Assembly: GCF_024055725.1 (NCBI RefSeq)
Contig: NZ_JAMXMX010000020.1
Location: 1 to 64,000, forward strand
Origin: Actinoallomurus spadix
Lineage (GTDB): Bacteria > Actinomycetota > Actinomycetes > Streptosporangiales > Streptosporangiaceae
Direction: 5' to 3'
Length of the DNA stretch: 64,000 nt
The position numbers and the translations under genes were made by a program. Below, one piece after another: positions 2,716 to 41,689 of the stretch (positions are counted from its first letter, which is position 1; each line of letters starts with the position of its first letter). The notes under the pieces are model-generated. The model saw nothing but the letters and a program-made list of their open reading frames with translations. It had not been told where the DNA came from and did not search any database.

Positions 2716-5127
2716 CTACGAAAGCGCGGCACGCACCCCTTCGGCGAGCATCGCCGGCGGCCGCCCCGCCGCTTCGGCTCCGATCCACTCCGTGAGGTCC
2801 GCAGAGGCGTGGAGCTCACGGACACGGCGAGCCCCCGGGCCGAGAACGAGGCGCTCCATGCGCAGCCGGAAGGCGCGCTCGTTCCCCGGTTCCCCCACCA
2901 CGGCCTGGACCAGCGCCTCGATGGCCCCGGGCGACACGCTGACATCCGGCACCGACACCTTCGTCCACAGGTCCGCGGGTGCGCGAAGCGGGAGCCGAGC
3001 CGCGCGGCCGCCTTGGGCGTCCAGCAGCCACGGCAGGGGCGGGAAGAGCACCCCCGTCCAGTCGAGACCGCCGCGTGCGGGAGCACCGGCCGGTCTCCCA
3101 CCCGGTGGGCCCAGTGGGTCACGGGGGATGGTGGCGGGCGAGTCGTCGTACACCAGGGTCATGGCGGCCACCGGCTCGCCGGTCCGCCGGGTGATCTCCA
3201 CGCGGACCTGCCATCGGCCATCGCGGAAGGCCCCGTGACCCTCCTTGGTGATCGATACGTGGTCGCCTTCGATCGTGAGCCGGTCGAGTCTGATGCCGAT
3301 GTCACGGATCTCCGTCAGGTGCAGTCTCGGCCGGCCTGCGGGGACCACCCAGTGACCGGTCGCCACGCCGTACTCCAGGAGCACGCTGACGGGCAGCGCG
3401 TCTCGTCCGTCCACCCGGAACTCCGACAGGCAGGGATGGGCACCGGCGCGCAATCGGGTCGAGGAGCGTATCGAGCGGAACTCCTCATAAGACTCGACCT
3501 CTCCGAGGTAGTGCTCCAGGCTCACCAGGTGCTTCAGCCCGCGGAACCCGCGCAGGTCCCGTAGGCCGGCCAGCTGGGTCGGGAGAATGGCCTCCCCGAG
3601 ATCGCCGAGGAAGACGACCTCCTCGCGATGCGCGGCGCGAATCTCGTCGAGCCAGCGGCGTACGCCGTCGGTCGGATCCACCATCGAACCGTAGCGGGCC
3701 GCGGCCTCATGGTTCGGAACGTTGCCCAGGCCGTCCCACGTCGCCCAGCACAGAGTCTGCACCGGCACGTCCATCGCGTTGCGCGCCCACATTCCCAGAC
3801 GGGCCAGCCCGTCATTGGCTCCGGAGTACGCCACCTGGCCGACCATGCCTCCCACCCGCCCGGACACCGAGCCGACGTTGCACACCAGCCGCAGCGCGCC
3901 ACGTCGTCGCGGGGTGGAGGTCACCGCCCCGAGGAGGGTGGCGAAACCGTCGATCTTGACTTCCACGGAGCGCTGCACCTCCTCGATCGATCGCCTGTCG
4001 AAGCGCCGCCATTCGTCGGCCACGGCGTTGTGCACCACCATGGACGGGCCCGGTGTCAACGAGGCGACCAACGCCTCCACCTGCTCGGCGTCGGTGCAAT
4101 CACACCGCGCGTACTCCACCCGCAGGCCGGCCCGCGCGGCGTCCCTCAGATTGTGGTCGATCTCCCGCAAGTGCTCAACGCGCGCGAGGGTCTTGCGCAG
4201 GCGACCGAACTGCGCGCTGGTGGCCGCGCGTCCCAACTGTTCCTTCTTCCAGCGGGCGAACTGCTCGCCGTTCATGGACAGCCAGGGCTCCGTCGTAGGG
4301 AGCTCACCGCGGCCGGTGACGACAACACGGCAGCCGAAGGACTCGGCGAGCCCCCGGGCGACGGCGAAGCCGACTCCACGGGCACCGCCGCTGATCAGGA
4401 CGGTGTCTGCGGGCCCCAGGTCGATGGTCGGCGCGGGCACGTCCCGCGGTCCCGCGGTGAGGCCATGGCGCCGTCCCGCACGGTATCCGACCTCCACTCT
4501 GTCCCAGGCCGCGCACTCGCTCTCCACCGCCCGTGCGATCGCGGGGGCGGACGCGGTGTCCAGGTCCACGACCTTGATCCCGATGGCGGGGAGTTCGAAA
4601 CGGAGGCCCTTGGCGAGCCCAGCCCAGATCCCGCCGAGGGGCTGGGGAAGAGGGATCTCGTCGTAGCCCATGAGCCCGCCGAGATGGGTCACCGCGAGGT
4701 AGAAGTGGTGACCGTAACGTGGCTCACGCACCCAGGCGGGATACACGGACTGCAGCGCCGCCGTGGTGATGCGCAGGGGCTCACGCCAACACGAGTCCCC
4801 GAACCGGTACACCGTGCCCGTCAGGTTCAGGTCCACGATACCGTCCCAGGCGTGCGCGGCCGGCGGCGCCGAGGACCCGGAGTACGTCTCGGCCCGAGCG
4901 CCACGCGCCCGCAACGCCGAGACGACCTCGTCGATCAGCGTTGCCTCTTGCCCCAGCACGACAACGCGGCGCCCGGCCAGTGCAGAGCCGCCCACGGTAT
5001 CCACGGGCGGCACGGGTTCGGGAGCCCACATCAACCGTTGCAACGGATGAGTGGACGACCACGGTTCACAGACCGCGAAGTCAGGCCCTGCGGCCGCACC
5101 GTTCATGGGCTTGGTCATTGTGCTCAT
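2716..5127 (-). CDS. KR-DH polyketide synthase subunit (last gene of PKS operon)
   Basis: An 803-residue two-domain PKS protein. Residues about 30-220 look like the structural half of a ketoreductase. Residues 240-480 are the catalytic SDR domain with nucleotide motif SGGARGVG (246-253), NVGSVSG and the YSGAND catalytic Tyr (434). Residues 555-790 are a double-hotdog dehydratase: AGAHPCLSEF supplies the catalytic His (564) and PWLLDAQGG the partner Asp (703). It should reduce a beta-keto acyl-ACP and then dehydrate it. The ATG at 5127 overlaps the stop of the upstream KR-DH gene by 4 bases (ATGA), so translation is probably coupled. It has no carrier protein of its own and must act in trans with the AT-ACP protein. 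Product unknown. Confidence 0.85.
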   Translation of the reverse strand: MSTMTKPMNGAAAGPDFAVCEPWSSTHPLQRLMWAPEPVPPVDTVGGSALAGRRVVVLGQEATLIDEVVSALRARGARAETYSGSSAPPAAHAWDGIVDLNLTGTVYRFGDSCWREPLRITTAALQSVYPAWVREPRYGHHFYLAVTHLGGLMGYDEIPLPQPLGGIWAGLAKGLRFELPAIGIKVVDLDTASAPAIARAVESECAAWDRVEVGYRAGRRHGLTAGPRDVPAPTIDLGPADTVLISGGARGVGFAVARGLAESFGCRVVVTGRGELPTTEPWLSMNGEQFARWKKEQLGRAATSAQFGRLRKTLARVEHLREIDHNLRDAARAGLRVEYARCDCTDAEQVEALVASLTPGPSMVVHNAVADEWRRFDRRSIEEVQRSVEVKIDGFATLLGAVTSTPRRRGALRLVCNVGSVSGRVGGMVGQVAYSGANDGLARLGMWARNAMDVPVQTLCWATWDGLGNVPNHEAAARYGSMVDPTDGVRRWLDEIRAAHREEVVFLGDLGEAILPTQLAGLRDLRGFRGLKHLVSLEHYLGEVESYEEFRSIRSSTRLRAGAHPCLSEFRVDGRDALPVSVLLEYGVATGHWVVPAGRPRLHLTEIRDIGIRLDRLTIEGDHVSITKEGHGAFRDGRWQVRVEITRRTGEPVAAMTLVYDDSPATIPRDPLGPPGGRPAGAPARGGLDWTGVLFPPLPWLLDAQGGRAARLPLRAPADLWTKVSVPDVSVSPGAIEALVQAVVGEPGNERAFRLRMERLVLGPGARRVRELHASADLTEWIGAEAAGRPPAMLAEGVRAALS

Positions 5128-7973
5128 CTGTCTTGGGCCCTCGGCTCCCGCACGCCCGGGTACGTCTCCGTGACACGCTCCCGCCGGATGAACTCTCCGC
5201 TCTCCTGGTCGACGTAGCCGAGTATCTCCGCGCTGACGTCCTTGAGCTGGCAGATCATGCGACCGTCGGCATCCGCCGCCACCGACCGGTTCGGCGCGTC
5301 GGCGTCCCGTACGTCGATGTCGAGATGCCCCGGTACGGAGTACAACCACACGGCGGTGCCGGCACGGGCCAGCGCGCTGTCGGTGTGCCCGTCGTACACG
5401 TCGATGCGCCGCATCCCCAGAGGCGCCGCGATGGGGCTCCACCGGCTGGCGACCTTGCCGAAGGCCCCGACCTGGGCGAGCGCGTCCAGGCACACCGCGG
5501 GAACGAGCGTGTCGGGGAACCACCGGTCGATCTTTGAACGGTCCAGCGCCAGCCTTGCCCGGTTCCCCTGCGAGTGGAGCTCACCGTCGCGGGTGGAGGC
5601 GAAGGTACCGCTCAGCCTGACGACGCTTCCTTCGGCGTAGTAGGGGTTGCTCACCGGTTCGGAGGCGCTCTGCGGCCAGGGTTCCCACAACGGTGCGGGC
5701 AGCGGTTCGTCCCGCAGGTGCACCCGCATCGATCCGTGTACCCGGTCCTTCACCAGGACGCGGCCGTCGGGAGAGATGACATCGCTGAGGATACGGATCT
5801 CGATCACGGATTCGCGGTCATCGTGCGACAGCAGGCGGGCGGTGGTCCGCTTCGGCTCCTGACCGTCGGTGCCGTACACACGCAGGAAGCGCTCGAATCG
5901 GACGTCCTCGAACACCACCGGGACGCGATGGGGGACCAGTTCGACGGCGGCCTGGGCGCCGATCTCGACCATGAGCATTCCGGGCAGCGTCGGATGACCG
6001 CTTACCAGGTGGTCTTCCAGGTAACCGTCGCGAGCCAGGTCGAAGGCGCGCAGCACGGTGAGCGCCTCGGGCGAGCGGTCGACCACGTCATCGACGTAGC
6101 ACCTGCCGGTCCGCCCGCCGACGCCGGGTGGGTCCTGTGGCAGCGGGTCGCGTATGACCAGCTGGAACTGGTGCGGTCGCGTGTTCTGGAGCATTCGCAG
6201 CTCGTTGACGCCCAACAGCACGGTTCCCGGGACGTGCGGGTCCTGAGTGAGCTCGTTGAGGAAGTGGTCGATGGCCTCGGCGCTGGTCATGGGGGTGAGC
6301 TCGGCGTTCTCGGCCAGCTGCGATCGCATGAGCGGATCCGTGGCGAGGCCCGTCTCCCCCCACAAGCTCCAGCCGATGGTGTATTCGCGATGGCCGTTCG
6401 CCGTCGCGTCCATCGCGGCGCTCGTCAGAAAGTCGTTCGCGGCGCTGTAGTCGGTCTCGCCGCGCTGGCCGGCGAACCCCGTGGCGGACCCGGAGTTGCA
6501 CCACTCCCTCGGTGGCGACGTCGCGAAGGCACGCTTGAGGTTGGTGTAGGTGTCGAACTTCAGATCCCGAACCGCCTGGAAGTCCGCCAGCGACTTCTGC
6601 CGCACCGCCGCGGCCCGGTTGATCCCGGCGATGTTGAGTAGCAGGTCCACCTGGCCGTGCGCGGCCAGGATCGTCCCCACCGCGGCACTGACGGCGTCGG
6701 CGGCACGCAGGTCGCACTCGATGTAGGTGACGCGATCCGCACCACTGTGCCTCTGGAGGGCTGCCAGCGTGGCGTGCACCTCCCTGGCCTGCGCCATCCT
6801 GCGCCATTCGGCGTTCGCCTGCTTCACCGACACCCTGTCCGGGCCGGTGGAGCGAGCTCGCAGGAAGTCCCGCTTCCGGGCCGCGAACGACGCCTCGTCC
6901 TCCTCAAGCACCTCGGTGCCGTAAGAGGCGATCGGGTTGGAACCCAGGACGTATATTCGGGGGCCGAAGCGTTCGGCGAGTGCCTTGAGCATCTCGGCGC
7001 CGATGCCGCGGCCGCCACCCGCCGCCACCACCACCGAATCGCCGTTCAGCCGGTCCGCGCCGCGACGGGCCGGGCGACGTTCGGCGTGCTGAACGATCCG
7101 CCGGCCGTCCACGTAATACACGGCCGGAAGACGCTCGGCGGACTCGGCCTCCGCCCGCAGATCCGGCATGGCGACCGCCAGCCGGTCGGCGTCATGGGCA
7201 ACGGCCAGCACGCGGACTCCCGGCAGGTCCGCCGAGAGCGCCTTGGCCAGGCCGGTGAAAAGGCCGCTGTACGGATGCGGCACCGCCTCCGCCCCGACAC
7301 CGCGCAGCAGGACGATGAAGAAGGAGGAGTCCTCGTCCATCCATGCGGCGCATTCCCGCGCGGCGAGGAACGTGGCGTCGTGCAGGCGGAGCAGCCGGTG
7401 CGTGTCGGATGCGAGCGGCCGCGGGACGCCGAGGTCGACGACCACGCACACCTGGCGCGGCCGTGCCTCGGATAGCAGCTCGGCGATTCCGCTCTCCAAC
7501 TCTTCCAGCGGCGTCGATCGGCCACCGCGCCGGGCCGTCACCGCGCCGTCGATCTCGATGACCGTCGCGTCCTCCGGGACGCCGGCGCCGTCGAGCAGTG
7601 CGGCGTCCTCCGTGAGGACGACGGCGCCGGACTCGAACGACCAGTCCCGCTCGGTCCCCGGCGGGAGCGTGGTCGGCATCATCGTGATCACGTGGCGTTC
7701 CTGGGCATACGAGGAGGGCACGGTTGTGGCCGGATCGTGCTCCTCCCGTGCGGCCGAGCCGTCCGCGGCGGTCTGACCGTCGGTCGCCTCAGCGGTCCCG
7801 CCGGACGGCGCGTCGGGGCGTCGGAGCCGCAGGATCCGCTCGCCGCGACGGGCGTCGGGGCGCAGCCGCAGCTCCGTGCGGGGCCTGTCCCCCGTGAGGA
7901 AGGCGATGAGATCACGGCCGCCTTCACCACCGAGGAAGGTCGGATCGTGGGCGCCGAATGTGGATCGGCTCAT
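5124..7973 (-). CDS. KR-DH polyketide synthase subunit
   Basis: A 949-residue PKS protein. Residues 1-100 are a low-complexity lead whose first 30 residues (STFGAHDPTF...) may be the tail of the CLF-like domain encoded just upstream. A structural KR half covers about 105-300. The catalytic KR is at 313-560 with AAGGGRGIG, NSGSATG and ETDYSAAND (Tyr 509). A dehydratase-type hotdog region follows at about 640-900, with DGYLEDHLVSGHPTLPG near its start (His 655), a pattern like that of enediyne and PUFA synthase dehydratases. Both ends are ATGA overlaps with the neighbouring genes. Having two KR-DH proteins in one system suggests either different chain-length specificities or one reductive and one structural copy. 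The two proteins are clearly diverged, not a recent duplication. Confidence 0.85.
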   Translation of the reverse strand: MSRSTFGAHDPTFLGGEGGRDLIAFLTGDRPRTELRLRPDARRGERILRLRRPDAPSGGTAEATDGQTAADGSAAREEHDPATTVPSSYAQERHVITMMPTTLPPGTERDWSFESGAVVLTEDAALLDGAGVPEDATVIEIDGAVTARRGGRSTPLEELESGIAELLSEARPRQVCVVVDLGVPRPLASDTHRLLRLHDATFLAARECAAWMDEDSSFFIVLLRGVGAEAVPHPYSGLFTGLAKALSADLPGVRVLAVAHDADRLAVAMPDLRAEAESAERLPAVYYVDGRRIVQHAERRPARRGADRLNGDSVVVAAGGGRGIGAEMLKALAERFGPRIYVLGSNPIASYGTEVLEEDEASFAARKRDFLRARSTGPDRVSVKQANAEWRRMAQAREVHATLAALQRHSGADRVTYIECDLRAADAVSAAVGTILAAHGQVDLLLNIAGINRAAAVRQKSLADFQAVRDLKFDTYTNLKRAFATSPPREWCNSGSATGFAGQRGETDYSAANDFLTSAAMDATANGHREYTIGWSLWGETGLATDPLMRSQLAENAELTPMTSAEAIDHFLNELTQDPHVPGTVLLGVNELRMLQNTRPHQFQLVIRDPLPQDPPGVGGRTGRCYVDDVVDRSPEALTVLRAFDLARDGYLEDHLVSGHPTLPGMLMVEIGAQAAVELVPHRVPVVFEDVRFERFLRVYGTDGQEPKRTTARLLSHDDRESVIEIRILSDVISPDGRVLVKDRVHGSMRVHLRDEPLPAPLWEPWPQSASEPVSNPYYAEGSVVRLSGTFASTRDGELHSQGNRARLALDRSKIDRWFPDTLVPAVCLDALAQVGAFGKVASRWSPIAAPLGMRRIDVYDGHTDSALARAGTAVWLYSVPGHLDIDVRDADAPNRSVAADADGRMICQLKDVSAEILGYVDQESGEFIRRERVTETYPGVREPRAQDR

Positions 7974-10900
7974 CTTCCGTCACCACCCTGGGTCTTGTCG
8001 CGCTCGATGACGGCCAGCACCGGCAGGCCGTCCCGGTCGGCCACCGATCGCCTGGTCAGCACGAACAGGAAGGCGCCCTCGGAGACATCCCGGCCCTCGG
8101 GCTCCGACGACAGCATGCCGCCGATCGGATCGGCCCATTCCGGAAGGCTGTTACCGTTCACGCCCCCGACGAGGGCGATGTCCAGATCGTCGAACTCCAG
8201 ATAGCCGACGGCCACCTCGAACGCTTCGATCAGCGACGCCTCGCCCAGGTCGACCGTCATGTTCAGACCCCGCAGATCGAAGTAGTTCGAGATCCGGGAC
8301 GCGATGATGTTGGGCATCTCACCGGGAAAGGAGTCCTCGGTGGGAGCGGCGAGCAGATCGTCGACGGCGGACCGCAACCGGTAGGCGAACTTGGCCATCC
8401 CCGCACCGCCGGAGGTGGTCAGAACCTCCTCGATGGCGTCCATATGAGCCCGCATGTGGTACAGGTGCGCATGGCGGGTGAGGCCCATGTGACCCACCAG
8501 CACTCCCGCCCGCTCGCCCCGACGCAGGCATGCGTCATGGATCTCGGGAGCGAGGTCTTGCATGCACTCGACGAGCATGAGCTGGGCCCGGTCGAGGGTA
8601 CGAACCGTCGTCGGCGGCACTCTGAACCGCTGGAACGGGGGGGCCGGGTAGGCGTCCCCGAACGAGCGCGGTGGCGCTTCGCTGCCGCCGGCGGCCCACC
8701 GGGCGAGGTCTTCGGAGTCGCCCATCCCCGGAAGCCGACCGGACCATCCGATGATGACGATGTCATCACCGCGACGCCTGCCGTACCCGCCGCTCGACGG
8801 CACGTCCGGCCGGTACTCCCGCAGCAGGACATGGGCGTCGGTCCCACCGAATCCGAACCCCGAGACGGCGCCCAGCCGCGGAGCCTCCGCACGGTCGGCG
8901 GGCCATGCCACCGGCCTGTCCGGGATCACCAGGTTGGTCGTGTCCAGCTCGAAGGCGTCGGGCGCCGAGGAGAAACGGTACTGGGCCGGAATGACTTCGT
9001 ACCGCATCGCGAGGAGAAGGTGGATGACCGAGACGACGCCGGCGGTCCACCCGGTATGGCCGAACAGTGACTTGTTGGAGGTCACCGGAACGGGCCGGGA
9101 CCCGGCGTAGCAGGAACGCAGGGCGGCGAACTCGGCGACGTCGCCGGTCGGCGTTCCGGTCGCGTGCGCGATGATGCAGCTCACGTCCTCGGGGCGGGCT
9201 CCGGCCTTGGCCAGCGCCCGCTGCACCGCAAGACTCTGTCCGGCGCTGGACGGGGCATAGATGGCCTTGCCCTTGCCGTCCGCGGATAGGCCGATCCCGG
9301 CGATCGTCCCGTAGACCGTGTCGCCGTCGGCCAGGGCACGCGACAGCCGCTTGAGCACGATCAGTGCGGCCCCATCCGCGAACAGCACGCCGTCGGCGCC
9401 CTTGTCCAGCGAGCGCACCACCCCGCCCGTCGACAGCCCCTTGAGCTTGGAGAACAACACGGGGGTAGCGGAAATGACGGCGTGCGACCCGCCGCATAGC
9501 GCGATGTCCGCCTTGCCGGACACGATGTCCCGTACGCCGAGGTCGATCGCGTACAACGACGATGAGCAGGCGGTGTCGAGAACGTGGGTTCGCGAGTCAT
9601 CGGGAAGAATCCCCCGCATGGCGTCGGCGACGATCCGGTGGGGGGTGAACCCCTGTGGCCCGGCCGCTCCGCGCCGGAAACGCCGTCCTAGCGCCTCCTC
9701 GGCGCGGGCCGCGTCCGAGGGATCCACCCCCTCGGCCAGATCGCCGCGCAGCGCCCTTCGCACGGCGCCGACCACAAGGGCCTCATCGAGGTTCTGGCTG
9801 CTGTCCGGCGTGTAGCCGACGCTCAGGGAGAACCGATCTCCCGGGCGGGAGGCGACCGACTCCAGCGACTGGTAGAGGCTGTGCCGCAACCACACCATGG
9901 TGGGGTCGTACGCCGGGTCGTCGACGTCCATTTCGGCGCTCAGCCGGGGATGCGGGGTGAAATCGTATATGTAGCCGCTGTTGCGCTGGTAGGTCTTGTC
10001 CGGCGCCTGCGGATCGGGGTCGTAGTACTCGTCGACCGTCCAGCGCTCGGCCGGTGGCTCGACGAAGAGTTCGGCCCCCTGGTTCAGGAGGGTCCACAGC
10101 TGCTCGGGGGAGGAGGCTCCGGGAACGGCCAGCCCCATCCCGACGACGGCGACCGGATCGGAATCGTCGGGTACGACGGCGCCCGGCGCGGCCGGCGCGG
10201 CCGGGGCGGTGGGCGCCGCGGAGGTCACGGGAGCGTCGCCGGACGGCGGGACGGCGGGCGCCATCCGAGCGGCGGCGGCTCCGGCGGGCGTTCGGCCGGG
10301 CGCCGGTTCGGAATCCACCTCCGTTGCGAGTGTGTGCGGGTGGACCTGCGCCTGCGCATCGTTGCCGCGGTCATCAGAGATGGCCGCGAAGCTCTTAGGG
10401 GCCGACATGGCGGCGTTCCCGAGAGAGATGCCGCCATCGGCGAGGATGGTCTGCCCGGTGACCCACCCGGACTCGGGTGAGGCGAGGAAGACGATGACGT
10501 TGGCCAGGTCCTCCTCGGTGGCCAGCCGGCCCAGCGGCGTGTTGGCGATCGTGTTGGCCACCATGGCGTCGAAGCCGGGGAACAACCGCCCGGAGACGGT
10601 GTCGATCAGGCTGCAGGACGCGGTGTTCACCCTGATCCGGTCCGGCGCCAGCTCGACGGCGAGGTAACGCGTCGCGGCCTCCAGCGCCGCCTTCGACGTG
10701 CCGATGGCCAGATAGTTGTCCAGGACGTACGGCGCGCCGATCGACGACACGTTGACCACGGCCCCACCGCCGGCCTTGACCATCAACGGGTGCGCGGCGC
10801 GTGTGCACCACAGCGCTCCCTTGAGGTTGGTGTTCAACGCGCGGTCCAGGTCCTGTTCCGTCACGTTCGACAACGAGGCGAACGCGCCGGCCGCCGCGTT

Positions 10901-11170
10901 GTTGACGAGGATGTCCAGTCGCCCGTATCTCGACTCGACCTTTTCGAACATCGACGTGACCTGCTCGGGCCGAGCCACCGAGCCACGGATGGCCTCGACG
11001 TCCAGACCCTCGTCGCGGAGCCGGGCAGCCCACTCCTTACCCGCGTGGTAGGAGTGGAAGCAGTTCAGCGCCACTTTGGCTCCGCGCCGGGCCAGGCGTT
11101 CGACGACGACCCGGCCGACGTCTCCCGCACCACCGGTGACCAGTGCGACTCTGCCCGACAGATCGGTCAC
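7970..11170 (-). CDS. FabL-like enoyl reductase - ketosynthase - CLF-like fusion (PKS/PUFA-synthase-like)
   Basis: A 1066-residue fusion when started at GTG 11170, which overlaps the upstream stop as GTGA. Residues 2-255 are an SDR closest in pattern to FabL enoyl-ACP reductases: LVTGGAGDVG, NNAAAGA, then YLAIGTSK giving the FabL-type Tyr-x6-Lys pair (153, 160). An Ala/Pro linker (about 265-335) leads to a ketosynthase with DTACSSSL (Cys 535), HATGTPTGD (His 669) and NKSLFGHTGW (His 705), so it is catalytically complete. From about 800 a second KS-like domain begins (DDIVIIGWSGRLPG). Its active-site Cys is replaced by Glu (VDLGEASL, about 977), as in chain-length or decarboxylating factors, but it stops after roughly 260 residues, short of a full domain. 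KS-CLF pairing resembles PfaC of PUFA synthases. Confidence 0.85.
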   Translation of the reverse strand: MTDLSGRVALVTGGAGDVGRVVVERLARRGAKVALNCFHSYHAGKEWAARLRDEGLDVEAIRGSVARPEQVTSMFEKVESRYGRLDILVNNAAAGAFASLSNVTEQDLDRALNTNLKGALWCTRAAHPLMVKAGGGAVVNVSSIGAPYVLDNYLAIGTSKAALEAATRYLAVELAPDRIRVNTASCSLIDTVSGRLFPGFDAMVANTIANTPLGRLATEEDLANVIVFLASPESGWVTGQTILADGGISLGNAAMSAPKSFAAISDDRGNDAQAQVHPHTLATEVDSEPAPGRTPAGAAAARMAPAVPPSGDAPVTSAAPTAPAAPAAPGAVVPDDSDPVAVVGMGLAVPGASSPEQLWTLLNQGAELFVEPPAERWTVDEYYDPDPQAPDKTYQRNSGYIYDFTPHPRLSAEMDVDDPAYDPTMVWLRHSLYQSLESVASRPGDRFSLSVGYTPDSSQNLDEALVVGAVRRALRGDLAEGVDPSDAARAEEALGRRFRRGAAGPQGFTPHRIVADAMRGILPDDSRTHVLDTACSSSLYAIDLGVRDIVSGKADIALCGGSHAVISATPVLFSKLKGLSTGGVVRSLDKGADGVLFADGAALIVLKRLSRALADGDTVYGTIAGIGLSADGKGKAIYAPSSAGQSLAVQRALAKAGARPEDVSCIIAHATGTPTGDVAEFAALRSCYAGSRPVPVTSNKSLFGHTGWTAGVVSVIHLLLAMRYEVIPAQYRFSSAPDAFELDTTNLVIPDRPVAWPADRAEAPRLGAVSGFGFGGTDAHVLLREYRPDVPSSGGYGRRRGDDIVIIGWSGRLPGMGDSEDLARWAAGGSEAPPRSFGDAYPAPPFQRFRVPPTTVRTLDRAQLMLVECMQDLAPEIHDACLRRGERAGVLVGHMGLTRHAHLYHMRAHMDAIEEVLTTSGGAGMAKFAYRLRSAVDDLLAAPTEDSFPGEMPNIIASRISNYFDLRGLNMTVDLGEASLIEAFEVAVGYLEFDDLDIALVGGVNGNSLPEWADPIGGMLSSEPEGRDVSEGAFLFVLTRRSVADRDGLPVLAVIERDKTQGGDGR

Positions 11171-12669
11171 GCCGACACCTCCGCGCGGCCGACTCGCGAC
11201 CACACGTAGTCGACGATCTTGCCGAGCGTCTCGCCTTCGGACAGGGCCTGACCCCTGTCGGCCTCCAGCCCGAATGTCTGCCGTACTTGACCGAGCAGTT
11301 GGGTTTGTTTGACGGAATCCACGCCGAGTTCGGCTTCGAGAAGCGCGTCCTCGGTCATGACCTCTTCCGGGTATTCGAGCGCCTCGGCGTAGAGCGTCTG
11401 GATCCGGGAGAGGATCGCCTCGCGGGAACCGACCGGCTCCGCGGGCCGGGACGAGGAGGACGGCTCCGATGGCGGAACCTGCGCCGGGGGCGCCGCCGGT
11501 GCCCGGGATGCCGCCGGTGCTGCCGTTGCGGCGGGAGCCGACGGGGCGGCGGGTGCCGGGGGCGCGTCCGGTACCAGGACCTGTGCCGAGGCGGCGCCGT
11601 TCGTCAGGGTTGGAGCGTGGCTCGACGGCTGAGGCGGGAGGACGGGCCGCGCCGGCTTCTCGGCCGGAGCACCCCGCCCTATCGCCGCCGTCGATCCGGG
11701 GAGGTAGGCGACGGTGTCCGCGAGAGCCCGCTCCTCGTACCGCCCATCGAGAGGCTGGAGGACCACACAGTCCGGATGGCTCGACTCTACGAGCCTGCCG
11801 AGGACCGCGCCGGCACCCAACTCGACGAAGACGCGGGCACCATGCTCATGGAGCCGGTCCACGGCCGTATCGAAGTACAGCGGAGTCACCAGGTGCAGAC
11901 CGAGCAGCGCGGCCAGGTCATCACCGTCGCGATACCAACGCTGCAGGATCGGCGAGTAGACAGGGATGTTCAACGGATAGCGGCTGTAAGCGCCGATGGC
12001 ACCGGCGAAGGCGGTTCGGGCCGCAGCCAGCAGGGGGTTGTGGAAAGGATGGGGGGAGCGCAGCGGGATGGCGGTGATCCCGATGGTGGAGGCGAGGGCG
12101 GCGACCGTCCGGATGCTCGCGTCCGGTCCGGAGAGCACCGTCTGCCCCGCACTGTTCCGAACGGCGACGAGGAGATCCGGGTCGGCGACCAGGGCGATGA
12201 ACTGCCGAGCCTTTTCCTCGTCGCATGACAGCGCGAGCATCTGCCCACCGCTGTGGTCGAACTGGCGCAGAGCGGAGATGCGGTGGCACAGGATTCTGGC
12301 CGAGTCCGTCAGAGTCCAGGCACCTGCGCAGGCCAGCGCGGTGACCTCCCCCATACTGTGACCGACCAGTGCGGACATGCGCGCGCCACGGTCCTTGAGG
12401 AGCCTGTACGCGGCTGCCGACAGCCCGAAGACGGCGAGTTGGAGAATGTCGGGGTCCTGCGCCAGCAGCTCGTCGGGGCCTGGCGCGTCCTCCGAGAATA
12501 CGGTCGTGGTGACGGTTTTGCCGAGGATCTCCTGCGCCGCGGTATCGACGGCGTCGAAGACCGTGCAGACCGCTTCCTCTCCCCTATACCAGGCGGCCCG
12601 CAAATGGTGCGGACGGTAGGAGCCCTGGCCGGGGAAGAGACCGATTATAGATTCCATCCCAGTGAACAT
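11167..12669 (-). CDS. Acyltransferase - acyl carrier protein (first gene of PKS operon)
   Basis: A 500-residue protein. Residues 5-330 are a malonyl-type acyltransferase: FPGQGS near the N-terminus, GHSMGE with the nucleophilic Ser (105), and HPFH with the catalytic His further on. A long Ala/Pro linker (about 335-420) leads to one ACP whose LGVDSVKQ motif carries the phosphopantetheine Ser (452); this motif resembles the carrier domains of PUFA synthases. I chose the ATG at 12669, preceded by GAAAG; a TTG at 12690 and an ATG at 12657 are alternatives. Only one ACP is visible in the operon, and no phosphopantetheinyl transferase or thioesterase is linked, so activation and release must depend on distant genes. 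Confidence 0.88.
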   Translation of the reverse strand: MFTGMESIIGLFPGQGSYRPHHLRAAWYRGEEAVCTVFDAVDTAAQEILGKTVTTTVFSEDAPGPDELLAQDPDILQLAVFGLSAAAYRLLKDRGARMSALVGHSMGEVTALACAGAWTLTDSARILCHRISALRQFDHSGGQMLALSCDEEKARQFIALVADPDLLVAVRNSAGQTVLSGPDASIRTVAALASTIGITAIPLRSPHPFHNPLLAAARTAFAGAIGAYSRYPLNIPVYSPILQRWYRDGDDLAALLGLHLVTPLYFDTAVDRLHEHGARVFVELGAGAVLGRLVESSHPDCVVLQPLDGRYEERALADTVAYLPGSTAAIGRGAPAEKPARPVLPPQPSSHAPTLTNGAASAQVLVPDAPPAPAAPSAPAATAAPAASRAPAAPPAQVPPSEPSSSSRPAEPVGSREAILSRIQTLYAEALEYPEEVMTEDALLEAELGVDSVKQTQLLGQVRQTFGLEADRGQALSEGETLGKIVDYVWSRVGRAEVSA

Positions 12670-12819
12670 TCGACGAACTTTCTTTCGCAACGATTACAAA
12701 CCGATGAATTCAGCCATCCAGGCCGCGTCGACCTGACAGGAGATCCGTACCATCGGCGCAGGTAGGAGTAGGCCGGGCGGGCGTCCATCGGCGCAGCGAC
12801 CTGTGTTTTGAGTCGGGGT

Positions 12820-13172
12820 TTACGTGCACCGTTCAGAGCAAGGAGCGTCCTCGGCCAGGTTCAACACTGCTGGCTCCGCACCCGCTACGCGTAATCGCCC
12901 AGGTAGTACGGCGTCGGGCTTGAAATCTGCGCCCGGCTCGAGCAGGGCGAAAGAGGGCGTGCCGGTGGTGTCGTGCTCGGCCCTGTGCATGTTCGGCTCA
13001 TCCAGGCCGGAGCCGACCAGGGCATCGTCCCAGCCGAGCAGCTCCGTCAGCATGTAGTCGATCCACGCCCGGCCGCCGGTGCCGTGCGCCGGCCGGGCCC
13101 TATGCAGCACCGGGATGGAGAAGATTGGGTCCGAGATTTGGATGAGGCTGAGCCACGTGTTGTGGTCAAAGC
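12820..13172 (-). pseudogene. N-terminal remnant of an Eco57I/DrmMI-like DNA methyltransferase
   Basis: The open frame reads SFDHNTWLSLIQISDPIF followed by AWIDYMLTELLGWDDALV and TPSFALLEPGADFKPD. This is the start pattern of large type IIL/Eco57I-like methylase proteins, including the adenine methylase DrmMI of class 1 DISARM. About 80 residues remain: an internal deletion removes sequence after the first helix, and the frame ends with no catalytic NPPY motif. It lies directly downstream of the helicase remnant on the same strand, in the drmD-drmMI order of class 1 DISARM. The family assignment is from pattern memory. Confidence 0.5.
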
Positions 13173-13201
13173 TGTCGGGGGTACGGGGAAGCGGGCCACT
13201 C

Positions 13202-13760
13202 TCAAACTGCCTCTCGCTGCGTTACGACGAAGATCACTGCGACGTGGAAGGAGCGGTTGCGGATCGGCGTGCCGGGCGACCGGCTGCTCCAGCTCCCGAT
13301 CTCGCTCGCCTTCGAGCCGCCGCAGGCGTTCTTCCCCGGACCGGCGGTCCCGGTGGTACGGGGCGATCTCGTCCTTGCTCTGCACTTCGACAGTGGAGAA
13401 CAGCGCATCCTGTTCGTCGCTCTTGTCGAGCTGCGCGGACAGCAGCCGGGCGGACATGCCGACCAGCGGACGGCAGCGCTACCACGTCGTCGCGGCCCTT
13501 CGCGATCCGCTGATCGAACGTGACCGGCCGCTGCTTCGGCTCCTGACCGGGGGCGGGGAGTTTCTCCCAGCAGCCGGCGGACGCGCGTTCCCAGGAGCCG
13601 GTCAGCGTCGGCACGTCGTACAGGCCCCGCGCCGGCCCGTTCGGAAAAATCGAACCCATCCTTGGTGATGTCGGGCAGGGAGCCGCTCGGCAGTCTCCGG
13701 CGTGCCGGCTTGACCTCCCAGATGACCGAGAGAGTCTCGTAACGGCCGTCCTCGACACTT
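13202..13760 (-). pseudogene. C-terminal remnant of a DrmD-like SNF2-type helicase
   Basis: The sequence makes sense only when frames are switched: GLYDVPTLTGSW, then RPVTFDQRIAKGRDDVV, then MSARLLSAQLDKSDEQDALF, and a final RNRSFHVAVIFVVTQ. This matches the order at the C-terminus of large SNF2-like helicases (an FDxxxAKGRDDVV segment, a charged coiled coil, a terminal hydrophobic strand). At least two frameshifts are present, and the ATPase motor domains are absent upstream. With the neighbouring methylase stub it looks like a dead class 1 DISARM phage-defence locus. Confidence 0.5.
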
Positions 13761-14005
13761 CTCTCCTTCGAGCATGGCGCTGCGGATCGGGACGTTCGCA
13801 GCGCGGAGATCACCCGGGCGGAAACCTCCCGACCAGAATCGGTCACAGAAGTCATTCCGCCCATCGGCACCGTAGATCACCACAAGAGTCAGTGTCTACG
13901 GTCAATTCAGCAGTGCCGCGGACCGTCAAGCCTGCGCATCGAGTGCAAGAGTGCTGCCGTGGCGCTATATTCGAAGCGGCGTTAGTTCCTTGGAGCTGAT
14001 GCGTC

Positions 14006-14188
14006 ATGCCCTCTGCCTGCATGCGGCACGATGAGTTCTCCCGCGCCCTCCGTCTGCCGACCGAAGCCGAGTACTACATCGGCGTCGGACCCCACCCGCA
14101 GGGCTGCCCGGGCCGCGTCGACCTTGACGACCCGCTCGTTGAGGAGATCACCGAACGGCTGTTCGACCGCGCCGAGGCGGTCGCGTGA
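14006..14188 (+). CDS. Hypothetical small protein (60 aa)
   Basis: A 60-residue open frame beginning MPSACMRHDEFSRALR, preceded by TTGGAG, with an acidic C-terminal helix (VDLDDPLVEEITERLF). No family is recognised. It sits in a decayed region and ends immediately before the permease remnant, so it may be part of an older gene and not an independent one. Confidence 0.25.
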   Translation: MPSACMRHDEFSRALRLPTEAEYYIGVGPHPQGCPGRVDLDDPLVEEITERLFDRAEAVA

Positions 14189-14750
14189 GCCGACCGCGCG
14201 ATCAGCCGCTGGGCCGGCTTCACGATCGGCTGGCTGTACTGGTGGTTCTGGGCCGTCGTCCTGGCCGTCGAGGCGACGGCCGGCGCCAAGATCGTGAACG
14301 GCTGGATCCCCGCCCTGCCACAGTGGCTGCTGGCCCTCATCCTGATGACCCTGCTCACCGCGACGAACCTGTTCTCGGTGGGCAGCTACGGCGAGTTCGA
14401 GTTCTGGTTCAGCTGCATCAAGGTCGTCGCGATCGCGGTGTTCATCGTGCTCGGCCTGCTCGCGATCTTCGTGGTGCTGCCCGGCACGCACGCCGTCGGC
14501 ATGAGCAACCTGACCGGGCACGGCGGCTTCTTCCCGCACGGGTACGGCGCGGTCATCACCGGCCTGCTCACCGTGGTGTTCGCGTTCATGGGCAGTGAGA
14601 TCGTCACCATCGCGGCGGGCGAGTCGCAGGACCCGGGCCGGGCCGTGACCCGCGCCGTCAACAGCGTGATCTGGCGGATCCTGGTCTTCTACCTGGGCTC
14701 CATCGCCGTCGTCATCGCGCTGCTGCCCTGGAACGCCGGGGCGAGGGCAA
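14189..14750 (+). pseudogene. Amino acid permease fragment (GabP/APC type)
   Basis: From just after a stop codon the frame reads WAGFTIGWLYWWFWAVV, then LNGW-type loop and further membrane helices through FGSEIVTIAAGES-like sequence (here FMGSEIVTIAAGESQDPG), ending near IALLPWNAG. This is the middle of an amino acid-polyamine-organocation permease, roughly helices 3-7. The N-terminal helices and the C-terminal half are missing, and the reading frame breaks into unrelated sequence at about 14,745. Confidence 0.7.
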
Positions 14751-14756
14751 GGTCGG

Positions 14757-14870
14757 TGTGCCAGCGCAGCAGCGTGCCAGGCGTGGACCAGCAGGCCGAC
14801 CCGGCGTGATTTCGGGAGTAGCCGGGCCAGCGCGGAGATCACGCCCGCTGGCCCACGACGGCTTTGGCCA
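14757..14870 (-). pseudogene. IS transposase/integrase scrap
   Basis: A short stretch reads VISALARLLPKSRRVGLLV and, with a frame change, a CRWHTDL-like segment. This resembles the ALxRLLPxxxRxxxLVTPGTLLRWHR region of integrase-type transposases. Frameshifts lie on both sides. It abuts the truncated permease and may mark the element that broke that gene. Confidence 0.35.
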
Positions 14871-14954
14871 GGCGACCTGACGGCGTAACACCGCCAGCTG
14901 GTGGCGAAGTACGAGTATCTCGATAACGAGGGTCGCAGGGCGGGCTCTTGGCCG

Positions 14955-16922
14955 TCAGGCCGGCGTGCGGGGGCCCAGGGCCTGGTCGGTCGCGCCGGGG
15001 GTGGCGGGGACGAATACCGGGGCGTCCTGCTGGTAGAAGATGTCGATGTCCGCTTCCTCTCCGCTGACGATCAGCGTGTCCCATGGGCCGCTCTCCTGGA
15101 GCGTCCGAAGGGTCGCGGGGGCCAGCGCGGAGAGGTGGTCCCGCAGCTCCTTGTCGTCGGGCAGGCCCGGAAGGCGTGCCGCGAGGCGGTCGCGGATGGC
15201 GTGCATGCGGTCCAGGAGGATCTCCAGGTCCGCCTCCGCTGATCTGGGAGACACAGAGCCCCCGCCAGCCCGCGCGGCCGATCCGGCGACTCCGGCCTTG
15301 GCCGGGCCTGCCGTATCGTCCATGCTGCGGTCGATGATGTCCTTGATCGCTCGGGTCACGCCTCGCTCGTCCGTCGTGACCATCGCGTTCCACGCGCGGC
15401 TCTTGTGACGGTACTGGAGCATCGACATCGCCGCCTCGTGGCGGATGAAGTCCGCGTCGCGCAGCGGGCGGCCCTGCCAGACGCGGCTGAGGGAGAGCGC
15501 CAAGGAGACGGCGGAGGCGAGGCCGCTGTTCAGGCCGCGGCCGGGCCAGAAGTGGATGGCGTTGGCCGCGTCACCCAGCAGGAAGCCGTATGTCCCGGGG
15601 CGGTCGGCGGCCGGGCGGGTGAGCTGCGCGGTGAACCGCGGGCGCTGCACCATGTCCAGCCGGAACGACGTGATCGCGCTGAGGTCATCCTCGGCCACCG
15701 CGAACAGCCGCAGCCCCTCCTGGATCCGCTTCCACAGCGGCGAGCTGCGCATCAGGGCGGGCAGGAACAGCGTGCCGTGGGTCGGGCAGACGAACTCGTT
15801 GTCCTCGTGGCGGCTCATCACGCACGGCCGGGCCGCGATGCACTCTTCGAAGACCTGCCGCACCGGGTCGATGCCTATGACGTTACGCGCCTCCTCGCGG
15901 GTCAGTCGCATGTTCAGGAAGCCCTCGCCGCGCAGCGAATTGAGCAGGAACCGGTTCTGCGCCACCGTCAGCAGGACGCTCATCGGGTCCGAGAGCCGGG
16001 ACTTGACCCGCAGCCCCAGAACCACGTCCTGGAGGTGTTCGCCGTGGAGGGAGTAGATGGAGGCGTCGGCCACGCCGAAGCGGTCCGTGAAGTGGTCACG
16101 AGTGCGCGACCGGCCACCCTCGCAGATCACCAGCACGTGGTCGCGGGCGATGAGATGTTCGTGCTCTACCGGGTCGAACCGCTTGGCCACCAGCCGGATC
16201 GCGGGCTTACGCTTGGCCAGTTCCAGCAGCTGATCCTCGATGTAGGCGATCCGGATGTTGCGGGGCGGCCGCCCGTCCACGGAGTCGGGGCCCACCGGCC
16301 ACATCTCGGAGAACTGGCCGTCCCCGAACAAAGCCGACCGCATCTCCTCCGTCAGCGCCATGTACTGCCGGCTCTGGACGGTGACGACCTGCTGGCGGCG
16401 GACGTTGCCGTGGGTCTCGTCCTTCCAGGCTACGGTGCTGCCGCTACGAACCCATCTGCCGTCGTAGACGGTGATGGAGGTCCGTCCCGGCAGCGCCTCC
16501 TCCAGCAACAACGCGAAGGCGAGGCCGACCGGACCGCCGCCCGTCACCGTCACCCGTAGCACGCCGGGGTCCACGGCCGCGTCGGCACGAGGCAGGGCGA
16601 GCTGGGAGAGGTCCATGACCGTCTGCATGGCCTCCTGCGTCTCGAATAGGAACGTCTCGTCGCCGATGCGTATGGTGTCGCCGGGCGTCAGCTCGTGCCG
16701 GGTGACGCGCTTGTCGTTGACGTACGTGCCGTTCCTGCTGTCGCGGTCGTGGAGCACGTATGCGCCGTTCTCCGCGACGATCTCGGCGTGCAGCCGGGAG
16801 GCGCTGACGCTGACGACGATGATGTCGTTATCACTCTTGCGTCCGAACGTCAGCGGAGCGTCGCCGAGGACCACGCTCTGACCGGCGAAGGGACCGGTGC
16901 GTCCCACGATGACCGACAACAC
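14955..16922 (-). CDS. FHA domain - FAD-dependent monooxygenase-like fusion
   Basis: A 655-residue protein. Residues 1-100 are a forkhead-associated domain with the phosphothreonine-binding signatures FGRKSDND, SASRLHAEI and DSRNGTYVND. From about 120 there is a group A flavin monooxygenase-like fold: VTGGGPVGLAFALLLEEAL is the Rossmann GxGxxG, and LLGDAANAIHFWPGRGLNSG is the second FAD motif. The C-terminal 100 residues are helical and variable. It lies 60 bases downstream of a Ser/Thr kinase on the same strand, so the FHA domain probably docks on a threonine phosphorylated by that kinase. This fusion is not a common arrangement. Substrate unknown. Confidence 0.85.
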   Translation of the reverse strand: MLSVIVGRTGPFAGQSVVLGDAPLTFGRKSDNDIIVVSVSASRLHAEIVAENGAYVLHDRDSRNGTYVNDKRVTRHELTPGDTIRIGDETFLFETQEAMQTVMDLSQLALPRADAAVDPGVLRVTVTGGGPVGLAFALLLEEALPGRTSITVYDGRWVRSGSTVAWKDETHGNVRRQQVVTVQSRQYMALTEEMRSALFGDGQFSEMWPVGPDSVDGRPPRNIRIAYIEDQLLELAKRKPAIRLVAKRFDPVEHEHLIARDHVLVICEGGRSRTRDHFTDRFGVADASIYSLHGEHLQDVVLGLRVKSRLSDPMSVLLTVAQNRFLLNSLRGEGFLNMRLTREEARNVIGIDPVRQVFEECIAARPCVMSRHEDNEFVCPTHGTLFLPALMRSSPLWKRIQEGLRLFAVAEDDLSAITSFRLDMVQRPRFTAQLTRPAADRPGTYGFLLGDAANAIHFWPGRGLNSGLASAVSLALSLSRVWQGRPLRDADFIRHEAAMSMLQYRHKSRAWNAMVTTDERGVTRAIKDIIDRSMDDTAGPAKAGVAGSAARAGGGSVSPRSAEADLEILLDRMHAIRDRLAARLPGLPDDKELRDHLSALAPATLRTLQESGPWDTLIVSGEEADIDIFYQQDAPVFVPATPGATDQALGPRTPA

Positions 16923-16981
16923 GGAAACTCCTTAGGGGATGCCAGCGTGGTTGGATTATGTACGATGCGCCGCGAGGTCAC

Positions 16982-18715
16982 TCACCCACTGCTCGGACGG
17001 CACGTCACCGAGAAGGGCACCGAGTTGGACTTCGCGTCGAAGGGCGACCGGATCTCCACCGCCATGGCGCTTCGCAGCGTCCCCGCCTGCGCGTACGTCG
17101 ACAGCCGCACCGTCTCCTGCTTGGTGGTCGACTCGCCCTCCCGGAACGACAGCGTCCGCCACTGCCGGTCGACCACCGACCCGTTCTCCGAGACCCACCG
17201 GTAGGAGAACTGGACGGGCGGCCGGGCCGTCCTGAACGTCGCGGTGAACCAGGGCGCCTGGCCGTCGCCCGGAGGGCAGCTCCCGTCGTAGGTGGTCGCG
17301 CCGCCCGCCACCGTCACCGACACGGGCTGCGACGCGCTCGCGCCGTTTCCCGTCTCGCCGTCACCTCCCCTGCCTACGAGCGCGTAAGCCAGACCCCCGC
17401 CGAGCAGGATCAGCAGGGCCGCTCCCGCTCCGATCAGGTACGCGGTACTGCGGTTGCGCCGCGCGGGGGCGGGCGCGGCGCCAGTGTTGGGGCCGGCGCC
17501 GGGAGCCTCGATCACGGATCCGAAGCTAACCGCTCCGCTGGGGGGGCCGAACGACGACACCGGCGCCGGTGGGGCCGCTGCGGCGACCTCCGGCACCGAC
17601 GCGGTCTCCGTTCCGCTGGTCACGGGCGCCTCCGGCGTGGGCTTCCCCGCCGTCGGGGTGACGGTCGTCGTGCCGGCCGTGACTCCCGTGGCCGTCGTTT
17701 CCCCATCGGCCGCCGTCGGTGCGGTCTGTCCCGGTGCGGATCCGGCGGTGGGCAACTCCTCCGCCGCCATCACCTCGGCCGTCATCGCGCCCGTGGCCGA
17801 GGTCGTGACCCCGGCTGTGGTCGCGGCGACAGCGGTGTCGTTGGCGGTGTCCGCCTCCGAAGGGGCCACCGACTCCCGGAGGGCCAGGCGCAGTTCTCGC
17901 TCGGCCTGCTCGGGCGTCATCCGCTCCTCGGGATCCTTGCGCATCAGGCCCTCGATGACCGCCGTGAGCGGGCCCGCCCGGTGCGGCGGAGGCAGTTCGT
18001 CCTCCACGACGGCGCGCAGCGTCGCAAGAGCCGTCGTCCGACGGAACGGCGAACGGCCCTGTACGGCCGTGTAGAGAAGCGCGCCCAGGGACCACAGGTC
18101 GCACGCGGTGCCAGGCGTCTGGCCCAACGCCTGCTCCGGTGCCAGGTACTCCGGCGAGCCGAGGATCTCGCCGGTCAACGTCAACGCCGTGTCCCCCTCC
18201 ACCGCGGCTATGCCGAAGTCGGTCAGCACGACCCGGCCGTCGTCGGCGAGAAGAACGTTGGCGGGCTTCACGTCACGATGCAACACTCCCGCACCGTGCG
18301 CCGCGCGCAGTGCTGCCAGCACCTCGACACCGATGTGCGCGGCCTCCTTCGGCGGCAAGGCTCCCCCGGCGCCGATCACGTCGGCCAGCGACCGGCCGCG
18401 AACGAGTTCCATCACGATCCACGGCCGACCGTCGAAGGTGGCCACGTCATAGATGGTCACCACCCCACGGGCGTTAACCCGCGCCGCCGCCCACGCCTCC
18501 CGCTCCATCCGGGCGTACATCCGCGCGCTGCGGTCCGCCGGCAGTTCGGCGGAGGCACGCACCTCCTTGACGGCCACCTCGCGGTGCAGCACCTCGTCGC
18601 GGGCGCGCCACACTGTGCCCATACCGCCCTCGCCGAGCACGGACAACAACCGGTACCGCCCGGCGACCAGCCGTTCGCCACCGCCGTCCGGCGAGGCCGC
18701 GTCCTGATTGTGCAT
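16982..18715 (-). CDS. Membrane Ser/Thr protein kinase (PknB-like)
   Basis: A 577-residue eukaryotic-type kinase. Residues 18-275 are the kinase domain: LGEGGMGTVW glycine loop, VAVKEV lysine, HRDVKPANV catalytic loop, DFGIA metal motif and SPEYLAPEQ activation segment. An Ala/Thr/Pro-rich juxtamembrane stretch of about 150 residues leads to one transmembrane helix (LIGAGAALLILLGGGLAYAL). A roughly 120-residue extracellular domain with two Cys follows; it lacks PASTA repeats. The ATG at 18715 has AGGGAG 7 bases upstream. It is cotranscribed with the FHA-monooxygenase gene, its most likely substrate. Confidence 0.92.
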   Translation of the reverse strand: MHNQDAASPDGGGERLVAGRYRLLSVLGEGGMGTVWRARDEVLHREVAVKEVRASAELPADRSARMYARMEREAWAAARVNARGVVTIYDVATFDGRPWIVMELVRGRSLADVIGAGGALPPKEAAHIGVEVLAALRAAHGAGVLHRDVKPANVLLADDGRVVLTDFGIAAVEGDTALTLTGEILGSPEYLAPEQALGQTPGTACDLWSLGALLYTAVQGRSPFRRTTALATLRAVVEDELPPPHRAGPLTAVIEGLMRKDPEERMTPEQAERELRLALRESVAPSEADTANDTAVAATTAGVTTSATGAMTAEVMAAEELPTAGSAPGQTAPTAADGETTATGVTAGTTTVTPTAGKPTPEAPVTSGTETASVPEVAAAAPPAPVSSFGPPSGAVSFGSVIEAPGAGPNTGAAPAPARRNRSTAYLIGAGAALLILLGGGLAYALVGRGGDGETGNGASASQPVSVTVAGGATTYDGSCPPGDGQAPWFTATFRTARPPVQFSYRWVSENGSVVDRQWRTLSFREGESTTKQETVRLSTYAQAGTLRSAMAVEIRSPFDAKSNSVPFSVTCRPSSG

Positions 18716-26291: not shown

Positions 26292-28867
<2,576 letters not shown>

Positions 28868-28877
<10 letters not shown>

Positions 28878-29182
28878 GATCGATCTCCGGAGCGTTGGTG
28901 AGCGCGATGTCTCTGGGCCGCCTCCAGGGCGGCGATGCGGTCGAGCAGGTCGCACACCAGGCCGACCGCCGCGTAGTTGAGCGAGAACCCGGCGCGGAGC
29001 CGCTGCACGCGCGCGAGGACCGCGAGCTGCTCGCGGAGGAACCAGAGCCCGCCGGAGGCGTCACGGTCGGCATCGAGGATGCCCAGCGCGACGAACCGGC
29101 GGATCAGCTCCGGGTGGACGTGGGCGTCGCGGGCGAAGGTCTCCAGGTCGACCCGTACCGGCCGCATGAGCGCGTACCTCAT
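28868..29182 (-). CDS. CbpM/MerR-like chaperone modulator
   Basis: A 104-residue protein with the compact helix-turn-helix fold of CbpM/HspR-type modulators ([20 protein letters not shown], then [20 protein letters not shown]). In CbpA-CbpM pairs it inhibits the J-protein; HspR relatives repress the dnaK operon. It starts inside the dnaJ stop (TGATG) and overlaps clpB. The short length fits CbpM better than HspR. I see no HspR-type inverted repeat upstream of dnaK, which also supports a CbpM role. Confidence 0.75.
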
Positions 29183-30141: not shown

Positions 30142-30622
30142 CGGCCTGCCGCCCCTTCGAGACCACCACCTGCGCCGGACGCAGCTGGTTCTCGCCGTGG
30201 CCGTATCCGGGCCTGGTCACCTGCACGATCGTTCCTTCCGGGGCGTCGGCGTCGGGAACGGCGGCGACCGCCTCGTGCCGGGTCGGGTCGAATAGGCGCC
30301 CTGTGTCGTCCTGGCGTGGATAGCCGAGCCGGGCGAGCACCGTGAGCGCCTGGTCGCGAACGGCGCGTACGCCATCGAGGAGGACGTCGGGCTCGGCGCC
30401 GGCGTGCTCGATGGCCCGTTCGAGGTTGTCCACGACGGGCAGCCACTCGGCGGCGGTCCTGGCCCGCTCATCGGACCGCAGCCGCTCGGCGTCGCGCGCG
30501 GCGCGCTTACGGTGGTTCTCCAGGTCGGCGAGCGCGCGCTTCCACCGGTCCTCCAGCTCGGCGAGCTTCGTCGCCAGGCCGCCGTCCTCTTCTGCCGGTT
30601 GTTCCGGCCGCATGTCACTCAT
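30125..30622 (-). CDS. grpE: GrpE nucleotide exchange factor
   Basis: A 165-residue GrpE: an N-terminal coiled-coil helix ([20 protein letters not shown]), the conserved [11 protein letters not shown] dimer segment, and a C-terminal beta domain with [20 protein letters not shown]. It releases ADP from DnaK. It overlaps the dnaK stop by 8 bases. It is somewhat short at the N-terminus compared with the housekeeping actinobacterial form. Confidence 0.93.
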
Positions 30623-41543: not shown

Positions 41544-41689
41544 GAAGTAGTTCTCCAGCGAAGCGCCTGCAACCAGAACCTCAACCGCCCGCCGTCCCCG
41601 TCGATCGAACCGGTCCCCATGATCCCGTGATACCCGGCATGGAGACCGCGCATACCATCGGCCGTCGACGGGCGAGATGCCAGGCGAAA

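Follow-up and report, generated by a model that had tools for sequence, protein, structure and literature searches.

The genes considered here lie in the first 64,000 nucleotides of contig NZ_JAMXMX010000020.1 of Actinoallomurus spadix, and this whole stretch is referred to as the window. On the minus strand at the contig-start side, positions 12669–2716 carry four intact genes for a multidomain synthase. In the order in which they are read, these encode an acyltransferase–acyl carrier protein (AT-ACP) of 500 amino acids (aa) (11167–12669; open reading frame (ORF), Pfam and catalytic residues), a protein of 1066 aa in which a short-chain dehydrogenase/reductase (SDR) precedes a ketosynthase (KS) and a chain-length-factor-like domain (CLF) (7970–11170; ORF, Pfam and NCBIfam), and two ketoreductase–dehydratase (KR-DH) proteins of 949 aa (5124–7973; ORF, Pfam and residues) and 803 aa (2716–5127; ORF, Pfam and profile–profile comparison). 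The original prediction had proposed this gene order, with an enoyl reductase (ER) ahead of the KS and 4-bp stop/start overlaps at every junction, and both proposals were borne out. The junctions read GTGA (11170–11167), ATGA (7973–7970) and ATGA (5127–5124). The first possible starts (12690, 11203 and 5523) would give longer frames than the starts taken (12669, 11170 and 5127). There are no internal stops in the operon frames, and GC content at the third codon position is 0.81–0.87.

Pfam placed an acyltransferase and one PP-binding domain in the first protein, adh_short_C2 and both ketoacyl-synthase domains in the second, KR and PKS_DH_N in the third and KR in the fourth, where no DH was found at E 0.001. 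Three ketoacyl-synt stretches were seen in the second protein, only the best being located, and the CLF was not settled by Pfam. The acyltransferase domain (12636–11785) has the motifs GHSMGE and HPFH, and the carrier domain (11406–11203) has the motif LGVDSVKQ. For comparison we used the best 80 of 127 relatives (loci L001–L080), some of which stop at contig edges; counts over 73 loci refer to L001–L073, of which L072 lies outside the KS clade described below. The single ACP that had been predicted is right for the window. As a trait that sets the family apart it fails, with two ACPs, by motif count, in 12 of the 56 relatives whose 400–1100-aa ORFs contain the motif.

The SDR domain (10421–11161) is predicted to be a FabL-type enoyl reductase, as had been proposed. 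FabL was the best-scoring of the NCBIfam SDR models (231 bits; next 196), and the top chain in the PDB was FabL 3oic (186.7 bits), followed by a FabG (143.2 bits). When the domain is aligned with FabL, NYLAIGTSK in the window lies over NYTTVGVSK, and both show the Y(x6)K spacing that is given as the FabL signature in the available part of PMC9260719. An SDR was aligned directly upstream of the KS in 68 of the 80 loci; the Tyr is kept in 65 of these (Phe in L037 and L039, Gln in L063) and the Lys at Y+7 in 67, and none has Lys at Y+4, the ketoreductase place.

An ordinary ketoreductase at this position is hard to reconcile with that spacing, with the lower scores of all listed FabG models and chains, or with the presence of two other KRs in the synthase. 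The SDR fold is, however, common to both enzyme types, the active site of FabL itself is said to be a hybrid of FabI and FabG (PMC9260719, in the same available text), and the domain stays below the curated NCBIfam FabL cut-off of 328 bits. Taken together, we regard the ordinary-ketoreductase explanation as very improbable. Bacillus subtilis FabL (PDB 3OIC/3OID) is likewise an SDR with Y(x6)K, but is a stand-alone enzyme of fatty acid synthesis, whereas the window domain is fused ahead of a KS. No SDR could be aligned upstream of the KS in L030, L068, L069, L070, L072 and L074–L080; for the first four of these, products that are more unsaturated would be predicted. In L068 and L069 the stretch before the KS resembles, by eye, a shortened SDR remnant.

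Pfam and residue alignment place the KS domain at 8804–10159 with its Cys-His-His triad, which is kept in all 73 loci. The KS-CLF pairing that had been proposed stands only in part. A CLF-like KS homolog is present (7988–8785), with Glu in place of the Cys, but in the profile–profile comparison it aligns to KS columns 3–305 of 469 (probability 98.7, E 3.9e-16), and it is thus predicted from its alignment to be a homolog of the N-terminal KS half only, the half with both His residues missing. Two crossed controls for this and the DH comparison below (CLF/KS and DH2/DH1) gave a probability of 0.1. The Cys is absent from the half-CLF in all 73 loci; over all 80, one has it and one gave no alignment. 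The half-CLF is probably catalytically dead. It is nonetheless well conserved, with a mean column identity of 60% over 39 chosen sequences, and its AlphaFold2 model has a mean predicted local distance difference test score (pLDDT) of 80.1.

The two KR-DH proteins differ in their dehydratases. In the first, KR1 (7031–6357; Pfam and residues) has the K-S-Y-N set and DH1 (about 6107–5229; Pfam PKS_DH_N and residues) has HxxxGxxxxP and Asp. Across the 73 loci the K, S and Y of KR1 are kept in 71/71 and the N in 70/71, and DH1 keeps His and Pro in 71/71, Asp in 70/70 and the motif Gly in 64/71. In the second protein, KR2 (4404–3733; Pfam and residues) also has K-S-Y-N, complete in all 57 loci in which the second KR is on a protein of its own. 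It is followed by a region (DH2, about 3522–2725; profile–profile comparison and alignment) that is homologous to DH1 (probability 95.9, E 5e-9); in its model (pLDDT 91.6) two long helices are, from a reading of DSSP output, positioned like those of a double hotdog. The description of the fourth protein as KR-DH therefore needs qualifying, with a DH homolog present and the catalytic His and Asp replaced by Phe and Glu. At the His place the 57 loci have F (49), V (5) and C, A and Y (one each), never His; of the 50 loci measured at the Asp place, 49 have Glu and one has Asp. On these residues, DH2 is predicted to be a catalytically dead, conserved pseudo-DH.

On a Paraburkholderia ginsengisoli plasmid (L126, 17148–21182) the second KR protein carries a cytochrome P450 fused on its N-terminal side, which makes a tailoring oxygenase a component of the synthase itself.

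The SDR-KS fusion had been noted as a departure from PUFA or enediyne-like synthases. It is not unique to the operon, as the 68 loci that carry it belong to Actinomycetota, Pseudomonadota, Bacillota, Chloroflexota and Myxococcota. Over the 73 loci, an AT lies upstream in 70, a CLF is present in 73, KR1 in 72 and KR2 in 57, and KS and KR1 are fused in 66; AT, fused SDR-KS, CLF, KR1 and KR2 all occur together in 55. The window, L001, L028, L030, L033 and L071 have KS and KR-DH1 on separate proteins. L028 and L033 (Nonomuraea) and L030 (Saccharopolyspora) share essentially the four operon genes with the window. Most of L001–L073 are thus uncharacterised clusters with the same core parts, the dead DH2 being found in the 57 with KR2; they differ in the fused KS-KR-DH1, split in the window, and in the P450, FMO (flavin monooxygenase) or FAD monooxygenase genes linked to many of them.

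A query with the CLF part matched 13 of the 297 genomes in the taxonomic family that includes Nonomuraea and Microbispora, counting that of the window itself, and none of seven genus mates. The CLF part of L015 gave matches at E 1e-15 in 47 of 392 genomes in the genus of S. iranensis, the weakest of which may be ordinary KSs. A collection of plasmids contained three records at E 1e-80, with identities of 35–47% and, where given, generic gene names. Because presence is patchy, the distribution suggests horizontal transfer.

In a quick IQ-TREE tree of 97 KS rows, the window, its relatives and the galbonolide-like sequences described below form a clade of 83 rows (SH-like approximate likelihood ratio test, SH-aLRT, 100). 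Within it, L030 (Saccharopolyspora) is the sister of the window KS (99), and the Nonomuraea and Microbispora rows are the next to group with this pair (99). A long branch (1.5) leads to the galbonolide-like rows, which are joined by the very long row L125, and this leaves us unsure of the branching order inside the clade. The KS rows of L072 and L074–L080 fall outside it. The 2074-aa protein of L074 (3771–9995) is PfaA by the curated cut-off (1443 versus 1010 bits), and the other outgroup stretches scanned gave fragmentary matches to PfaA and other polyketide synthase (PKS) models; the rows do not include marine PfaA or PfaC.

This placement bears on the idea, put forward in the original prediction, that the KS-CLF pairing and the LGVDSVKQ motif point to a polyunsaturated fatty acid (PUFA) or enediyne-like synthase, which did not hold up. 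A PUFA-synthase-like secondary lipid synthase, with the SDR in the place of PfaD and a long fatty acyl chain as its product, would explain the KS-CLF pairing, the PUFA-like LGxDSxK carrier motif and the matches of the PfaA model to all four proteins (241, 123, 72 and 57 bits). However, even the best of these whole-protein scores falls well short of the 1010-bit cut-off, and the model PKS_plus_SDR outscores PfaA for the KS protein (296 bits) and the AT-ACP protein (139 bits). The window KS lies apart from the Pfa-type rows, there is one ACP instead of a tandem array, and only half of a CLF is present. No PfaD-like domain turned up in the 26 ORFs of the window that were scanned, a subset that includes the four core genes; the FabL-type SDR was found instead.

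The genes that accompany the relatives also argue against lipid synthesis. In the 73 loci, neighbours include P450 (26), SDR (21), FAD_binding_3 monooxygenase (18), MFS transporter (16), FMO (15), IclR (12) and SnoaL (7), counted as single-linkage clusters each named from one scanned member and excluding the P450s fused to KR2. The P450, FAD monooxygenase, FMO and SnoaL neighbours fit polyketide tailoring better than membrane lipid synthesis, and we consider a PUFA-like lipid synthase unlikely. Enediyne PKSs are generally single KS-AT-ACP-KR-DH-PPTase polypeptides; this class was rejected since the window has four proteins, in which Pfam found no phosphopantetheinyl transferase (PPTase) domain. 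Membership of the PUFA synthases proper was rejected on the ACP, PfaD, half-CLF, KS clade and score evidence above. What the window shares with PfaA–E and with the secondary lipid synthases (types A–T of Shulse and Allen, as given in the available part of PMC3098273) is the KS-CLF pairing, a discrete AT and, presumably, iterative use, together with a KR-DH region that resembles the C-terminus of PfaA by NCBIfam. The streptoaminal/5aTHQ cluster was also rejected as a match, as the accessible text describes it as having two KS/CLF sets and places it under type II-like polyketides (PMC12187902).

A closer likeness was found in three galbonolide-like clusters. In S. iranensis (L165) an AT protein of 527 aa, in which the ACP Ser aligns and the ACP itself is not called by Pfam at 1e-5, accompanies an SDR-KS-CLF-KR-DH protein of 2003 aa that is 35.8% identical to the window protein over residues 14–1063. 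FabL is again the nearest of the SDR models (192 bits). The neighbours of these genes encode a 342-aa protein like beta-ketoacyl-ACP synthase III (KAS III), a P450, a Rieske/KshA protein, a 3HCDH protein, a PP-binding protein (26.3 bits), an acyl-CoA dehydrogenase and FkbH. In S. antioxidans (L167) the predicted PKS frame is 2287 aa long and is accompanied by KAS III-like, P450, Rieske and FkbH genes, and a Streptomyces replicon (L168) has an AT-ACP, a 2068-aa PKS, a KAS III-like protein and a P450. All three retain the KS triad and, in the SDR, the Y(x6)K spacing.

This gene content brings to mind the galbonolide (rustmicin) synthase (GalA–C/gbnA–C), whose products are antifungal. Kim et al. 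(2014) are reported to describe GalA–C as a single-module PKS, with GalD as the P450 and GalE as the Rieske protein. In the portions of the literature available, galABCDE are enough for galbonolide B and galGHIJK are needed for galbonolide A (PMC11074319), and galbonolides were lost in a gbnB knock-out in which a 5-kb internal gbnB fragment was replaced (PMC11463028), a fragment size that fits a 6-kb gene. By way of L165 and L167, the window would share with this synthase the AT-ACP, the SDR(ER)-KS-half-CLF-KR-DH order, the Y(x6)K of the SDR and the KS clade. An AT-ACP beside an SDR(ER)-KS-CLF-KR-DH set, divided between two proteins, is indeed what the window contains when the galbonolide-like clusters, rather than published sequences, are the reference. 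A described product class with nearly the architecture of the window therefore probably exists, and the earlier statement that none is known stands only for the branch with KR2 and pseudo-DH, for which we found no described product. In the open papers searched we found no described SDR-KS-CLF synthase beyond the galbonolide lead and no paper naming the KR2–pseudo-DH branch.

In S. iranensis (genome G320) and S. antioxidans (G324) alike, the galbonolide-like CLF homolog is the second one in the genome; it shares 35% identity with the CLF of L015 and lies about 9 kb from an FkbH gene. Each genome has two synthases of the family, one galbonolide-like and one with a second KR.

We conclude, with a probability of roughly 75%, that the window encodes a single-module, highly reducing iterative type I PKS of the galbonolide-synthase type, in four polypeptides. 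Several observations weigh against this. The link to galbonolide would rest on gene content and on what is reported of GalA–E, and the galbonolide-like clusters have diverged, with KR Ser replaced by Thr in 3/3 and the DH motif Pro by Ala in 2/3, besides their long KS branch. No separate KR–pseudo-DH protein was matched in these clusters; conversely, the window ORFs scanned hold no gene for a KAS III-like protein (GalC), P450, Rieske protein or methoxymalonyl-ACP formation, and no thioesterase or other release enzyme. Relative to the galbonolide synthase, the window is a variant that splits KS-CLF from KR-DH and adds the KR–pseudo-DH protein; among the uncharacterised clusters, it simply adds to their number. 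As the SDR-KS fusion is widespread in bacteria, the synthase is a little-studied variant and not a new kind.

If the galbonolide-type assignment is right, the AT would load an extender unit on the single ACP, which would carry the chain through repeated rounds. The KS, with the catalytically dead half-KS shaping its cavity, would extend the chain repeatedly. KR1 and DH1 would reduce and then dehydrate. In some cycles, or in every one, the FabL-type SDR would go on to reduce the enoyl group, so that KR1, DH1 and ER together would yield full reduction or an alkene. KR2, locked to the pseudo-DH, would reduce the beta-keto group in cycles that keep the hydroxyl. As product we infer an acyl chain or macrolactone that is hydroxylated and partly reduced. 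Release by an unlinked enzyme, through lactonisation or hydrolysis, is a guess.

One puzzle posed by iterative PKSs is how a single set of domains picks a different level of reduction from cycle to cycle. In this operon each KR has a protein of its own, paired with a live DH in one case and a dead DH in the other, so that the choice per cycle could be tested subunit by subunit. The accessible description of NaPDoS2 names four bacterial iterative KS subclasses (aromatic, polycyclic tetramate macrolactam (PTM), enediyne and PUFA), and the type found in the window is not among them. Tentatively, the relatives may form a large unnamed single-module iterative branch spread over several phyla, with a half-KS instead of a full CLF and with KR2–pseudo-DH deciding the hydroxyl cycles; its products would be a class of hydroxylated and partly reduced polyketides or macrolactones to which no genes have so far been assigned. 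The family is in any case a target for genome mining.

The window is the start of its contig (C12) and has an ISL3 transposase at 72–1607, so the set of partner genes seen here may be incomplete. No tailoring gene was recognised beside the operon, and the genus mates lack it, as would be expected of a stranded or incomplete cluster whose tailoring, release and regulatory genes were lost or lie on another contig and which may be silent. The four intact frames with their conserved catalytic residues and coding GC profile speak against this, as do the relatives in Nonomuraea (L028 and L033) and L030 with essentially the same four genes. A stranded cluster thus seems rather doubtful, and could in any case be compatible with a synthase of the galbonolide type. 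The P450 of a Microbispora relative had its best match in the window's own genome at 30% identity on another contig, giving no sign of a split-off partner in this search, which covered the P450 and not the FMO or FAD monooxygenase.

Apart from the operon itself, the only matches in the window to the neighbours of L001, L028, L030 and L033 were a kinase (L028) and a CAAX-protease-like protein (L030, about 45 kb off). The window kinase gene (16982–18715), about 4 kb upstream of the operon, has matches in 4 of the 80 loci; in L028 the kinase gene is directly upstream of the AT-ACP gene and its kinase domain is 52% identical. Kinases are common. On the minus strand at 14955–18715, this Ser/Thr kinase gene adjoins one for an FHA-flavoprotein (weakly FAD_binding_3-like), and the two are possibly a phosphorylation-controlled oxygenase pair. 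The FHA-flavoprotein (14955–16922) was rejected as a pathway gene: tblastn at E 1e-8 gave no match to it in any of the 80 loci, and a short frame on the plus strand (14294–14809) that by eye resembles an amino acid permease fragment lies between it and the operon. A promoter and terminator scan of 12500–15200 found none (shuffled sequences, 0.1 and 1.0), and Rfam gave no match in the window at the gathering threshold.

A fatty acid desaturase gene and a ferredoxin-type reductase gene overlap by 4 bp at 39271–41798; the pair had been judged too far away to be assigned to the operon, and at about 27 kb (39–42 kb in the window) this judgement stands. Elsewhere in the window, a chaperone group on the minus strand (26292–33408) encodes a ClpB-like AAA protein, DnaJ, Hsp70 and a DUF1931 protein, and at 24286–25872 a pyridine nucleotide-disulphide reductase is fused with a cyclic-nucleotide-binding domain.

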